Below are positions 2,038 through 20,452 of a DNA stretch of 25,065 nt, one piece after another. The DNA comes from a virus. Every line of letters starts with the position of its first letter. The first letter of the stretch is position 1. The DNA lies in IMG/VR virus record IMGVR_UViG_3300028025_004957, positions 1 to 25,065 of that record; one strand, given 5' to 3'. A program made the position numbers and the translations under genes. Below the pieces are notes generated by a model that did not search any database, was not told the DNA's origin, and saw only the letters and a list, made by a program, of their open reading frames with translations.

Positions 2038-5000
2038 TTAAAATGTACCCCCACCATTAGTTGTTCCTAAATCAATTAATTTTTGTTTTACTTCTTTAGT
2101 TATAACATCTATATTAGCTAATACACTAGGATGAAGATTATTAGGAATAATAAATCCTAAAGATGTATCTCCTGGTTTTTTGTCAAATGTTAATATTAAA
2201 TTAGTTTCATCATTTACTTTACTTAATATTAAAAATTTAGTTATATCAGTTTCATTGTATGCTGGTTTATTCAAATTGCTAGGTAATTCTGATGATAAGG
2301 TTAGGTTGAGTTTCTTTGATGTTGAATCCGTAAAAACATTTGATATAGTAGATTCAAAATACCCTCCATTATAGTATATAAGTATAACATCTCCAAATTT
2401 TGGGCTAAAATTATACTCAACTTCACCATAAGTATTATATAAATTATTTTTAGTTATAGGGAGACTTCCACTAGGCATAAATAAATAATCTTTAAAATAA
2501 CTTAAAGAACTATTAAATATTAAATTATTATTTAATGAACCCGATATAAATGGAGCTGGTGCATTATTAAAAGAAGATGTAGCAAATGGATTATTTCCTA
2601 CTTGATATTCAGCTAATTCATTGGAGAAAAATCCTCTTTCTGGGTTAGAAGTATAAGGTTTTATAGATGCGGTAAAATTATTAGTATTAAATCCTCCACT
2701 TCCTGTTATAAACTCATAACTGATTTTATCACCTACTGCAAATGGAGTATAATTGGTACTTACATTGAAAATTAAAGTATCTGATAATTTACTAGTAGGT
2801 GCATCATATACCTCAGCATTAAAATATTGATATGTTGATTCACACCCTGGAGATAAATTTGAGGGGTTAAAAATTCCATAATAATCTTCATCAGTCATAT
2901 ATAATGTAACAGGATTAATAAGATCACATCCTGGACTGTTAATATTTTCAGCTGCTGAAACTAAAACTAGTTGAGTACCTGGGGCTAATACGGTAGGGGA
3001 TAAAGTTCCATTTGCATTGTAAATCTTAGTTTCTACATCTATAAACAAAAAAGTAGGTGAAAAATCTACTTGGAAATATTTGTAATTTGTATATTTAATT
3101 GTTGATTTACCTGATGCTATAAATTTTGTTTCAGTAGCTATTGGATTTTGGGTCCCACCAACTTTATTAATATTAAATGTAAATGATCCTGAAAGATTAA
3201 TTGATGGGAATGAAACTTCAACATCAAATTTAGCATTAAATCTTTGATTACTAGTTTCTTGAATACTATAAGTTGAGAATGTATTTAAATTATTATTATC
3301 TACTTTATAAAAAATATTACCATCATTAAATGTAGTATCAAATGTATCTGTAAGGTTTTGAAAAATTTTATGTATTTTATCACCATTAGTAATAGGATAT
3401 TTTAAAGTACTATCACCATATATAAATCCTCCAGAATTCTTTATTTTAAATAATTTAGATTTAGTATCTCCAGTATAGTTAAAATATAATTTTGAATCTG
3501 AACTACTAGCATACATTATAGGGAAGTATGAATAGCCACTATCGTATATAGGTTTAGAACCATCTGTGGATTTTTGGGATTGATTAGTTGTAGTAGAATT
3601 TCTAGAGCTATCAAATTGAGATACGGTTAAAGATTCTCCAGCTTTAAAAATATTTTGTACTTCATTCCAATTTTTATTCTTTTTATTTAATTCTGTTAAA
3701 TTTCCATTTTCATCAACGAGATATTTTATAAAAACATTATTTCTAAAAGGGAAATTAAAATATGCATTATTACTAATTTGATAAAATAAACCTAATTTTC
3801 TAGTATTATGTTCAATAACAGCCGTCTTACCATAAGAAGAATCCCCAGGATAAGTACCAGATGCTGAGCTATATGTATTAAGTTTTAAACTTGATGCTTT
3901 AGTTCCATCATAACGTGAATTTTGAAATCCTCTTAATGATAAATTACTTTCTTGTAATTCAGCATCTGATGTATATTCATTGAACGAACTTGATAAAAAA
4001 ACATTATTATTTAAAGTAACATAAATTTTTTCAAGTTTTTTCCTTGAATTAGATAATACACTTGAAGAAACATTGTTTAAAGTTACATTGAAATCAGTAT
4101 GATTAAATTCATTTATATTAATTGAATTTGTTGGGTGGAGATACGGATTAGGATTTGAGTTTTCAAATATATTATTTATATTAATATATGAACCTGTAAA
4201 TTCACCAGTATAAAATGATGATTTACTACCTGTTACTTTATTATAATAGTATGTTTTATCTTCTGTAATGGTTGGTCCACTATATTTAGCATCATATGTT
4301 GTTTCTTTTGTTACTTTAGGATGATATACTGGTACTTTATTACGTTCTAAAACTGGTGATTTAATTGTTATACCTGTTAAAGCATTTGTTCTGGCAGGGA
4401 CAAAATCTTTTAACATCTTAAATAAACTATTATCAAAATATTTTACTAATTCAATAAATCCTTTATAATCTAGACGTTTTGCACTACCAGATATAGCTGA
4501 GCTAGCAGAAGTAAAATAGTTCTGTTGGTTTATTAAGTCATCATATGATGATGAAGCCATTAATCTAGGATCTCCTATATATTCATCTAGTGAAAATGTA
4601 GGATAAGTTACTGCAACTGATGCTGATATTCTAGAATTTAATTCTGTTTGAGGGCTAAATGATAAATCAACAAAATGTAAATCAGTTGATGTAAAATCTG
4701 ATGAAGCTGTAGATGGTTGCTGTAATGATATAAACGGAGATAAAACACTACCAGTTATAGTATTATTTTGGATTGTTATTTTATCGTTATCATATCCTTT
4801 TAATTGGTTTTTCTTTGTAGAACCACCAAATTCATTTGGAGAAAATATACTACTAGTAACACCAAATGTAGTTATTAATTCTTGTAAACCAGTTGATGTA
4901 CCCTTTGTTTTAGATAATAAAGGTATATTATGGTATATTCTTTTAAATGTTTCAGCTAATAAATCTTTTTTAGGTACGTTATTTAAATAACTACTTGTTA

Positions 5001-6501: not shown

Positions 6502-6833
6502 TATTTTTTATTTAAATCTAATAATGTTTTATTAGCATCTAATAACTCACTTCTTAATGTTGTAATTTCATTTAATAAAGCTTGAATATCATTTTCTTCA
6601 CTTAATTTAATTCCTAGATATTCAGCAGTTTTATTTAAAATATATTTATGAGATTCTACATCTCCTTCTTTAGGAATTTGATAAAATAAATCTTCATATA
6701 TTTGAAAAAAATCACTTAATGTAATATCTCCTTGAGATTGTTGAGTACCTACTAATTGTTTAAATCTAGTATCAACTACCTTTTCAAAATTATTTTTTCC
6801 AAAAACATTCTTATCAAAAGATATTTGAGTCAT
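6501..6833 (-). CDS. Small baseplate-region protein with C-terminal coiled coil
   Basis: A 110-residue protein. Residues 78-110 (NDIQALLNEITTLRSELLDAN) have heptad spacing of Leu/Ile and probably form a coiled coil. The N-terminal half has no recognised domain. The stop overlaps the next start by one base, and its own ATG overlaps the stop of the 358-residue gene, so it is co-translated with two structural proteins. A chaperone or connector role for the giant neighbour is possible, but this is inference. Confidence 0.65.
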   Translation of the reverse strand: MTQISFDKNVFGKNNFEKVVDTRFKQLVGTQQSQGDITLSDFFQIYEDLFYQIPKEGDVESHKYILNKTAEYLGIKLSEENDIQALLNEITTLRSELLDANKTLLDLNKK

Positions 6834-7909
6834 TATCTTATTACTTTGAAATAATTATTATCTTCATGTATTATTGTACTTCCACTTACTATGGTTTTAA
6901 TTAATATACTATAGTATCTTTCAGGTTGTAAACCATTCATGTATAAGTTAAAATAATTACCTGTTGAATCAGCTGATAGTTTGGTAAAAGTAGTATCAAA
7001 ATCAATTACAAATTCTTCAGTTTTAATATCTTTAATAGCGTAATATGAAGATGTAGGTAATAACTTATTATTTAAATATAATGAAGATGTTTGAAATGTC
7101 CTAGTAGGATATTTATCTCGTACATTTACTTTAAAACGGTTAACTGAATCTTCTTGGAACTCACCTTTATTGTTTGCTAATGAAATAAATATATTATCTG
7201 ATTGGACTGTAGTTAAAGAACCGGTAGAATAAGAAAAATCATTCCATCTAAATTCTAAACATGGAGGATAAATTGTGTGAGTATCAGTAGAAAAATATTT
7301 AAGCTCAAATGTTGAACTTGTAGAAAATTCTAATGAACTAGAATGTTTAACAATAAATCCGTTTTGATAATAACTAGAACTAATAGCATTAGTTACATCT
7401 AATTCAATATCTTTATTAGTTGTATAAGTAAAAGATTGAGTAGAAATTAAATTACTCCCAGTCCACCAACTTCCACCTCCAATATTAGTTCCACTGTACG
7501 CATTTGTAGCATTTGCAACGGATGAGGTAAATACACTTCCACTTAAATTATCTCTATACTTCCAACTAACTCCATCTGTAATAGAAGGTGTATTAGCAGC
7601 ACGTCCTGTACCCATATTCCAAGAACCTGATATTGGGGAACAATATAAAGTATAATCTAATGGAATTTCTGATGCGTTAGCTAAATATAACTTTAAATAT
7701 GCTTTATATGTAGATGGGGTAATTTTATTAGTTAATAAATCAGATATTTCAGTATTAGAAAATGCTAGTAGTATTCTAGAAACTTCCCCAGTACTTTCAA
7801 TAGATTCATATAAACTTATATCTAATATTTCATCTAACCCAGCGTTTTTTGTTGGATAATATGAATATATAGAAGCGTCTTTTGTAGGAAAAATTTTATA
7901 TACTGCCAT
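6833..7909 (-). CDS. DNRLRE/CBM-like beta-sandwich structural protein
   Basis: A 358-residue protein starting MAVYKIFPTKDASIYSYYP and continuing with an NAGLDEILDISLY stretch and a VSRILLAFS strand. This 'P-x-x-D-a-x-I ... N-x-G ... R-x-L-L-x-F' layout in residues 5-60, with a Trp-rich segment GSWNMGTGR near residue 95, is typical of DNRLRE or carbohydrate-binding beta-sandwich domains. Residues 215-358 form a second beta-rich domain. It lies between the gp6-like gene and the giant structural gene. It is probably a baseplate or fibre-attachment component that may touch glycans. Domain call from pattern memory only. Confidence 0.6.
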   Translation of the reverse strand: MAVYKIFPTKDASIYSYYPTKNAGLDEILDISLYESIESTGEVSRILLAFSNTEISDLLTNKITPSTYKAYLKLYLANASEIPLDYTLYCSPISGSWNMGTGRAANTPSITDGVSWKYRDNLSGSVFTSSVANATNAYSGTNIGGGSWWTGSNLISTQSFTYTTNKDIELDVTNAISSSYYQNGFIVKHSSSLEFSTSSTFELKYFSTDTHTIYPPCLEFRWNDFSYSTGSLTTVQSDNIFISLANNKGEFQEDSVNRFKVNVRDKYPTRTFQTSSLYLNNKLLPTSSYYAIKDIKTEEFVIDFDTTFTKLSADSTGNYFNLYMNGLQPERYYSILIKTIVSGSTIIHEDNNYFKVIR

Positions 7910-19268: not shown

Positions 19269-19285
19269 GGAGGACAACGTCCTCC
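19269..19285 (-). terminator. Hairpin at the end of the tRNA-like cluster
   Basis: GGAGGAC-AAC-GTCCTCC, a perfect 7-bp stem. On the minus strand it is followed by ATCTTTGT, only a short T-rich stretch. It lies about 40 nt beyond the last tRNA-like unit, just before the next promoter copy, so it probably ends or protects that transcript. Confidence 0.5.
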
Positions 19286-19324
19286 TCTTATGCATCTGTA
19301 ATAATTAACTAATAAACAATATAG

Positions 19325-19397
19325 CTGAATAGAAAGGATTCGAACCTTAATCCTGCATCCATGTTACTTTCTGCCGTGCACCATACACCATATTCAA
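19325..19397 (-). tRNA. tRNA-like RNA C, no canonical anticodon arm
   Basis: Acceptor strands TTGAATA and TATTCAG pair over 7 bp (one G-T). T8-G9 follow, then a D arm GTG-TATGGTG-CAC with the GG pair, and a T arm AAGG-TTCGAAT-CCTT. Length is that of a normal tRNA (about 73 nt). Between D and T arms no 5-bp/7-nt anticodon arm can be drawn, so no anticodon is assigned. CCA is not encoded. It could be a degenerate tRNA gene or a tRNA mimic. Confidence 0.45.
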
Positions 19398-19399
19398 TC

Positions 19400-19442
19400 G
19401 AACGTTTCGAACCGTTCAGTCACAGGGTAATTAATCCTGTGA
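19400..19442 (-). other. Hairpin plus T-arm-like inverted repeat between tRNA-like units
   Basis: Two adjacent structures on the minus strand: TCACAGG-loop-CCTGTGA (7 bp, 9-nt loop, 19420-19442) and GAACG-GTTCGAAA-CGTTC (19400-19417), the latter like a T arm with an 8-nt loop. Flanking CAAATC and GATTG can pair weakly. It could be a D-armless tRNA-like unit or remains of a tRNA. Confidence 0.4.
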
Positions 19443-19447
19443 TTTGA

Positions 19448-19526
19448 GGCTAGTACGGGTCTCGAACCCGTTGAGGAATTTCTTCCACGTACCGTCCCAC
19501 TGTGAAGCCATTTACAGTGACCAGCC
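19448..19526 (-). tRNA. tRNA-like RNA B, no canonical anticodon arm
   Basis: Acceptor GGCTGGT/ACTAGCC pairs over 7 bp with one G-T. The D arm is CTGT-AAATGGCTTC-ACAG. The T arm ACGGG-TTCGAGA-CCCGT is perfect and directly abuts the acceptor strand as in real tRNAs. The 28 nt between D and T arms hold a GGAA-GAAA-TTCC hairpin that resembles a long variable arm, but no anticodon stem can be found. Isotype not assignable. Confidence 0.5.
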
Positions 19527-19531
19527 AATTG

Positions 19532-19651
19532 CAACCGGGACAGGAATCGAACCTGTAGGTATCTGTGACAGATACTATGGTGTGATTACGCTCACTCACC
19601 TTTGGGATGCGAACCCATTTCCATTAGCGTTACCCACTGCGCCACCCGACT
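19532..19651 (-). tRNA. tRNA-like RNA A with enlarged anticodon region (about 119 nt)
   Basis: AGTCGGG pairs with CCCGGTT over 7 bp (two G-T), with T8-G9, a classical D arm GCGCAGTGGGTAACGC and a perfect T arm ACAGG-TTCGATT-CCTGT that abuts the acceptor. A long variable-arm-like hairpin GTATCTG/CAGATAC lies at 19559-19575. Where the anticodon loop should be, ATGG and CCAT flank about 40 nt, which include another T-arm-like TGGG-TTCGCAT-CCCA. This may be an insertion, an intron-like element, or a fusion of two decayed tRNAs. Confidence 0.45.
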
Positions 19652-19659
19652 ATTTACTC

Positions 19660-19821
19660 TTAATTTGTCTTAACGAATCGTCCGTTACGGATATCACGTT
19701 TACGAGTTACGCCACGGCGATCTACCACCGTCTCGAAATAACGATTTGAAAGTGCTGTGTAAGCGAAATATCCACCTACTACTAATAATGCGGCTGAGCC
19801 TAAAATTTGAAATAATTGCAT
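19660..19821 (-). CDS. Small single-helix membrane protein (53 aa)
   Basis: A 53-codon ORF that begins MQLFQILGSAALLVVGGYFA: one N-terminal membrane helix (residues 4-22), then a strongly basic tail (VDRRGVTRKRDIRNGRFVK). Positive-inside logic puts the tail in the cytoplasm. The ATG follows the leader AAACAAACAT and a promoter copy. It ends 9 nt before the first tRNA-like unit, so both are likely on one transcript. Function unknown. Confidence 0.6.
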   Translation of the reverse strand: MQLFQILGSAALLVVGGYFAYTALSNRYFETVVDRRGVTRKRDIRNGRFVKTN

Positions 19822-20089: not shown

Positions 20090-20115
20090 GTACGTCGTAA
20101 ATGTAATTAAGAAAA
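20090..20115 (-). promoter_or_regulatory. Repeated promoter motif, copy before 61-aa gene
   Basis: Minus strand: TTTTCTTAATTACATTTACG then ACGTAC, 15 nt before the ATG at 20075; it overlaps the 3' end of the GIY-YIG gene. Confidence 0.6.
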
Positions 20116-20388
20116 TTTAATTTTCCACTGTGAACCTTTATTACCCAATATTTTATTTTCTAATTGGAATCCCCACGACATAAAAGTCTGAATCCACATC
20201 GTCTCAATTGGTTCCCAGTCTTGTCTCCGTTTAGACTCCACTTGGTCTATTATAGTCATTTTTATTTGTGACCCAAATTTTTTACGGTGTCCGCTTTCCC
20301 TAACAACAAAATTATTTGTTTTACCCACATAAATTTTCCCTCCAGGTAGATTCTCTACTAAATAAATTAATGTATGTTTTACTCTCAT
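20107..20388 (-). CDS. GIY-YIG domain protein
   Basis: A 93-residue protein. Residues 6-35 carry the domain core: TLIYLVENLPGGKIYVGKTN (the 'IYL...IYVGKT' pair) followed by VVRESGHRKKFG with the conserved Arg and His. A downstream Glu (EPIETMWIQ) fits the metal-site residue. It is the minimal single-domain form. The frame is open to 20424, but the ATG at 20388 is preferred, because a promoter core TATATTTAGGTGT ends right before it. GIY-YIG enzymes cut DNA in homing, repair or phage competition; the target is unknown. Confidence 0.78.
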   Translation of the reverse strand: MRVKHTLIYLVENLPGGKIYVGKTNNFVVRESGHRKKFGSQIKMTIIDQVESKRRQDWEPIETMWIQTFMSWGFQLENKILGNKGSQWKIKFS

Positions 20389-20408
20389 ACACCTAAATAT
20401 AACAAAGA
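20389..20408 (-). promoter_or_regulatory. Promoter core abutting the GIY-YIG start
   Basis: Minus strand: CTTTGTTATATTTAGGTGT followed at once by ATG. Matches the TAnnTTTA core; the transcript would start at or within a few bases of the ATG. Confidence 0.5.
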
Positions 20409-20422
20409 CATCTATTGGTAGC

Positions 20423-20452
20423 AAAAAAAAATTTGATTAGACGGTCGTCTAA
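20423..20452 (-). terminator. Rho-independent terminator
   Basis: On the minus strand TTAGACG-AC-CGTCTAA (perfect 7-bp stem, 20437-20452) is followed by TCAAA and nine T (20423-20431). It ends transcription arriving from the right, and sits about 350 nt past the 58-residue gene. Confidence 0.7.

Follow-up and report, generated by a model that had tools for sequence, protein, structure and literature searches.

Results

The window, that is, the whole 25,065-nt stretch of DNA analysed here, is a 25-kb piece of the genome of an uncultivated myovirus, and its baseplate protein shares 45% identity with that of the Flavobacterium phages 'immuto'. The initial annotation had placed a cluster of tRNA-like RNAs at positions 19325-19651; the sequences lie there and two of the units, A and B, are real, but the RNA strand is the minus strand, on which all neighbouring genes also lie, and unit C is weak. 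The cluster is located 3' of a gene for a 53-aa protein with an N-terminal hydrophobic segment and a basic tail (19660-19821, minus strand), which borders the slot occupied by these units in all relatives, and 5' of a terminator-like hairpin, GGAGGACgttGTCCTCC (19269-19285, minus strand). Between the units and the hairpin lies the 3' slot flank (19293-19321, minus strand), the first 26 nt of which are identical in all slots checked but one (L010, with one substitution). In the relatives, the hairpin is GGGAGCC/GGCTCCC, and its arms have changed together in a compensatory manner. Read on the plus strand, the invariant flank (CTGTAATAATTAACTAATAAACAATATA) resembles the gene-leader motif of the window phage (TGTAATAAATAATTAACTAAACAAAC); the flank may be a source of antisense transcription running into the slot, or the resemblance might be a coincidence. 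Two genes upstream of the slot, an ORF with a GIY-YIG endonuclease domain was found (20107-20424, minus strand; Pfam PF01541, E 4.7e-8), close to the slot in the window and not seen at the corresponding position in L002. Enzymes of the GIY-YIG type, SegB among them, cut and amplify phage tRNA regions (PMC13096335), and the ORF is a possible driver of cassette exchange.

Aragorn in its default mode found no tRNAs in the window, and Rfam at gathering cut-offs gave no match in the cluster. With introns allowed, Aragorn called unit A (19532-19651, minus strand) alone, as an 'intron tRNA' at c[19531-19651]. Below the Rfam cut-offs, A scored 27.4 bits (RF00005, cut-off 29) and unit C (19325-19397, minus strand) scored 15.8 bits (RF00005), and unit B (19447-19526, minus strand) was unmatched by RF00005 in the window as well as in three other phages that carry it (G012, G013 and G014). 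Below the cut-off, B was matched by tRNA-Sec (RF01852), an assignment that we rejected on the basis of its score (20.2 bits against a cut-off of 47), its lack of a UCA anticodon arm and its acceptor of 7 bp rather than the required 8 bp. With a custom detector that requires a T arm, an acceptor and a D arm, A, B and C scored 12.2, 12.6 and 9.6, respectively. Because Markov-shuffled windows contained only 0.003 matches of at least 12 per window on both strands, and random upstream sequence beside a real T arm reached 12 in only ~0.3-0.7% of trials, A and B are not products of chance: their acceptor, D and T arms exceed it. The same does not hold for C, as random upstream sequence attained 9.6 in ~8% of trials, so that C is not significant alone. 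The earlier claim of three units with 7-bp acceptors, unlikely to arise three times by chance, was therefore upheld for A and B and not for C.

Both A and B possess the top of a tRNA, with a 7-bp acceptor, a D arm with GG and a 5-bp T arm with a TTCRA loop. The acceptor of A (AGTCGGG/CCCGGTT) forms 7 pairs, two of them G-U, and is followed by a TG linker and the D arm GCGCAGTGGGTAACGC; the T arm is ACAGG-TTCGATT-CCTGT, with G73. Its non-canonical centre of ~70 nt includes a variable hairpin of 7 bp that is class-II-like (GTATCTG tca CAGATAC), and the length of the unit (~119 nt) and the ~40 nt between ATGG and CCAT are as first described. In B, the 7-bp acceptor (GGCTGGT/ACTAGCC, with U73) is directly abutted by a 6-bp D hairpin (CACTGT-AAATGGCTTC-ACAGTG) with a nearly invariant loop, and GG and a 3-bp mini-hairpin (ACG-GTA-CGT) follow in place of the anticodon arm, succeeded by a variable hairpin (GGAA-GAAA-TTCC) and the T arm ACGGG-TTCGAGA-CCCGT. 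Unit C, which abuts the 3' flank as do all other slot occupants, shows the acceptor, D arm and T arm in part only: its acceptor (TGAATA/TATTCA) has 6 bp and a mismatch, or 7 pairs including one G-U, its D arm is short, it has no anticodon arm and its T arm is AAGG-TTCGAAT-CCTT. The folds of A (z -0.56) and C (z 0.22) were not better than those of shuffles. Of the fourth, partial unit that had been noted, D (19400-19442, minus strand), two good hairpins stand (fold z -3.2), TCACAGG-ATTAATTAC-CCTGTGA and the T-arm-like GAACG-GTTCGAAA-CGTTC, whereas its acceptor has at best 6 bulged bp. Our searches found no relative of D or of the centre of A, and the centres of A, C and D are unique to the window.

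A 5-bp anticodon stem with a 7-nt loop and U33 was not found in A, B or C, in agreement with the initial annotation. The possibility that these are normal tRNAs with an overlooked anticodon arm was rejected, as relaxed settings of Aragorn gave several mutually inconsistent low-score calls and the consensus fold of B has no such arm; neither Aragorn nor covariance models, both of which had been suggested as checks, assigned a normal tRNA.

Using a DNA pattern made from B and then looser patterns, we found B in at least six contigs: the window, G009/L014, G010/L018 (partial) and the tRNA arrays of G012, G013 and G014; B is probably commoner than this count. It lies directly in the slot in G009, and in the three arrays, which have 47, 27 and 26 RF00005 matches, respectively, it lies between normal tRNA genes. 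With 34-63% protein identity, the phage of G014 is distantly related to that of the window. G012 and G013 had zero matches to 19 window proteins and have a single weak protein match with each other. B is therefore common to at least three phage lineages. In an alignment that is small (five full-length members, partly close kin), 99.2% of the pair cells were standard and six pairs had changed on both sides (one in the acceptor, three in the variable arm and two in the T arm); the covariation score was reached by 0 of 500 shuffles, and slid controls collapsed. Among the members, the D hairpin and core hardly vary, the mini-hairpin follows ACG-N3/4-YGT, and the variable hairpin differs in length (GGAA GAAA/GCAA TTCC; AAGTA GAAA TACTT; long in G013). 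From the alignment alone, RNAalifold recovered all five of these helices and predicted no anticodon arm. A covariance model of B gave 65-107 bits for the members (105.7 bits for the window unit), 31.6 bits for one tRNA-Ser, which carries U73, at most 20 bits for other canonical tRNAs and a maximum of 22.9 bits on 871 kb of other phage DNA. With its compensatory changes and shared fold in distinct genomes, B is a conserved structured RNA. No match to B was found in INPHARED or in plasmids (PLSDB), or by exact patterns in one genome for each of 84,980 species, and a literature search, outside of which most subscription papers fell, found no description of an anticodon-less phage tRNA family.

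The 53-aa gene, the 3' flank and the hairpin recur in the slot relatives in IMG/VR, and each distinct slot holds a different tRNA-like cassette. Eight distinct slots of 90 to 345 nt were compared: those of the window, G001, L003/L006, G003, G004, G005, G006 (three identical contigs) and G009 (two units). The anticodon arm was canonical in only 1 of 11 slot units, the tRNA-His(GTG) of L003/L006, and the other ten lacked a 5-bp/7-nt arm with U33: a hairpin of this size persists in G001, G004 and the first of the two units in G009, where position 33 is G, A and G, respectively, and the remaining units have no 5-bp/7-nt arm. Among the array tRNAs called by Aragorn, 86 of 87 had an arm with U33 and one did not, a proportion biased by the caller itself requiring an anticodon arm. 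In G001, the nearest relative (107 kb), the slot unit is the sole tRNA match. The slot contents are exchanged between relatives while the flanks stay identical.

An A-type frame, AGTCAGG-TG-GCGGAATTGGTAGACGC ... ACAGGTTCGAATCCTGT-CCTGACT-A, is common to four paralogues in G014 and to the units in the slots of G004, G005 and G006. It is tRNA-Leu-like in its D and T arms and A73 and encloses unrelated centres of ~37 to 110 nt; some of the centres in G014 contain a displaced Leu(UAG) loop, CTTAGA. Unit A of the window has the 5' flank of the A-type units and a diverged frame (AGTCGGG/CCCGGTT). In an alignment of nine frames, including those of G001 and G003, 97.8% of the cells were paired and 9 of 15 pairs in the acceptor, D and T stems had double changes; some cassettes have A1-C72 or A2-C71 mismatches. 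The search for compensatory changes in relatives that the initial annotation had proposed was thus positive for both B and the A-type frames, and the latter show that the upper half of the tRNA was once under selection, though not necessarily after the anticodon arm had been lost. The adjacency of A and B in the window has a counterpart in G014, where two A-type units come immediately after a B unit. Unit A belongs to the tRNA-Leu-like frames with a hypervariable centre, and its decay is also possible.

Discussion

Because of its compensatory changes and near-invariant core in divergent phages, we consider B to be a new, selected, anticodon-less family of tRNA-like RNAs of phages that does not decode and did not arise by decay. 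The suggestion of a decaying tRNA array is therefore contradicted for B by its covariation and conservation, and it may hold for A, C and D, the centres of which are unique to the window. As B is conserved among phages with almost no detectable protein similarity, it probably has a tRNA-related job other than decoding. The suggestion of a tRNA mimic or decoy fits B best, conserved as it is with covariation and without an anticodon arm in at least three lineages, and B is perhaps a decoy for a tRNA-targeting defence.

The units, as read from their sequences, retain the upper half of a tRNA with its elbow (an acceptor stacked on the T arm and a D arm with GG) and have no working anticodon arm. 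Our tentative reading, to which we give somewhat less than an even chance, is that the locus is a phage cassette slot with non-decoding tRNA-like RNAs, likely mimics of tRNA on proteins that bind the acceptor, elbow or variable arm. The RNAs would be co-transcribed with the 53-aa gene; by analogy with general tRNA biology, host RNase P and RNase Z would excise them, CCA would be added, and they would fold into an L through the D-loop GG and the T-loop TTC. We propose with less confidence that they may then act on such proteins without decoding, most likely on a host tRNA-targeting defence, as a competitor or an uncleavable decoy, or alternatively on EF-Tu or an anticodon-independent synthetase (Leu/Ser type). 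The tRNA-His(GTG) in the slot of L003/L006 argues against mimicry, as the slot does not demand a non-decoding RNA. Phage tRNAs are deployed against PARIS, retron-Eco7, Septu and PrrC, and those published as evading PARIS, retron-Eco7, PrrC or VapC keep their anticodon and are thought to replace or resist the loss of tRNA (PMC10264068, PMC11555353, PMC13096335). In the case of retron-Eco7, an anticodon change in the phage tRNA-Tyr abolished rescue (PMC11555353); a pure decoy therefore fails to explain that system, and the decoy idea proposed here is not borrowed from it. A wider proposal is that B and the A-type tRNA-Leu-like frames with exchangeable centres form a dedicated phage class of non-decoding tRNA mimics, in the slot and in arrays, which would occupy host proteins that bind tRNA, for example immune nucleases directed at tRNA; we regard this as possible but rather doubtful. 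The prevailing view is that phage tRNAs supplement decoding or serve as replacements that resist cleavage; those roles are separated by a conserved tRNA-like RNA of phages that is unable to decode, which would show the tRNA shape itself to be a phage tool. B is also a short, testable RNA, and it accounts for gaps left by tRNA callers in phage tRNA arrays.

The main rival to mimicry is that the tRNA-like tops are mere RNase P/RNase Z signals with 3'-end protection, placed where the 53-aa mRNA ends and where one array transcript gives way to the next, so that any acceptor-T-arm shape would serve, the anticodon region would drift and tRNA-His would be equally good. This would suit the constant position of the slot between a gene and a terminator-like hairpin, and also its mixed contents, which have only top-half features in common, with hypervariable centres and one canonical tRNA-His; however, it leaves unexplained the near-invariant D hairpin and core of B between unrelated phages, the presence of B within arrays already rich in processing sites and the retention of D arms in A-type units, and we consider it unlikely on balance. 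Slightly less probable still is that insertion and drift have disrupted the tRNA genes A, C and D, which flank homology and homing endonucleases retain in a hot spot, with B alone functional. The unremarkable folds of A and C, the displaced Leu(UAG) loops in G014, the acceptor mismatches in some cassettes and the nearby GIY-YIG ORF are all consistent with such decay, but the acceptor, D and T stems stay paired while the centres do not (although these compensations could predate the loss of the anticodon arm), and a non-canonical state is found in nearly every slot.

Two further explanations would assign the units a role closer to that of ordinary tRNAs. The class-II-like RNAs could be charged by anticodon-ignoring synthetases (Leu for the A-type, with A73; Ser or another amino acid for B, with U73) and be used off the ribosome or tie up EF-Tu. 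LeuRS and SerRS do not need the anticodon, the A-type frame matches tRNA-Leu in its D and T arms and A73, A and B each carry a variable hairpin of the class-II kind, and the top canonical scorer with the B model was a tRNA-Ser with U73; nevertheless, U73 is untypical of bacterial tRNA-Ser and A of the window has G73, making this explanation improbable. The idea that the units are intron-bearing tRNAs spliced into normal tRNAs, also raised initially, draws on the intron-tolerant Aragorn call and on the centre of A between ATGG and CCAT, but we judge it very improbable and did not retain it: no Rfam intron family was found at gathering cut-offs in the window or in the G014 and G013 arrays, the inserts, a few tens of nt long and without shared sequence, are shorter and less alike than known self-splicing introns would allow, and B contains no insert. 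No RtcB was found in the contigs, which are incomplete (the control was positive), and no T4-type RNA ligase in a search of the contigs made without a positive control.

Canonical phage tRNA arrays, such as those of T5, T4 and mycobacteriophages, likewise combine acceptor, D and T arms with an array context and short spacers, but they differ in having the decoding arm that is absent from the units described here. The long variable hairpin is shared with class II tRNAs (Ser, Leu, Tyr and Sec), the A-type frame being tRNA-Leu-like and B scoring best against tRNA-Ser, and the 6-bp D stem of B is shared with tRNA-Sec; in contrast to class II tRNAs, the anticodon arm of the units is absent or cut to 3 bp, and B fails RF00005 and has a D loop of 10 nt. 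The T4 stable RNAs C and D (species 1 and 2 RNAs) are non-tRNA stable RNAs of unknown function within the T4 tRNA cluster, and we liken them to the units by description without claiming homology. Plant-virus 3' tRNA-like structures and mascRNA-type RNAs are tRNA mimics recognized by tRNA-processing or charging enzymes without decoding. Whereas these are domains at RNA 3' ends in eukaryotic systems, the units described here are small genes in the cassettes and arrays of DNA phages.

Several other unusual features were observed in the tRNA arrays. Upstream of those of G012 and G013 lie a short ORF and a strong terminator, AAACCCGAA...TTCGGGTTTTTT, an arrangement resembling an attenuator leader (L047 300-500 and 1400-1650; L051 reverse strand 300-500, 3850-4060 and 6800-7200). 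In G013, tRNA-Leu-like genes (L051 reverse strand ~2280-2490 and ~2700-3130) contain inserts of ~200 and several hundred nt, which gave no Rfam intron match at the gathering cut-off. Additional tRNA-like units that contain a long insert or lack an anticodon arm are present at G012:24002-24131 (plus), G012:67786-67846 (plus), G006:40432-40575 (minus) and G006:27401-27523 (minus), including a 61-nt tRNA without an anticodon arm in G012. A tRNA-Gln(TTG) of G012 (67705-67775, plus) has G rather than U at position 33, and a normal tRNA-Gln occurs in the same array. Directly before unit B in G012 (L047 2853-2941) lies a tRNA whose anticodon is GCA (Cys) and whose variable arm is long and class-II-like.
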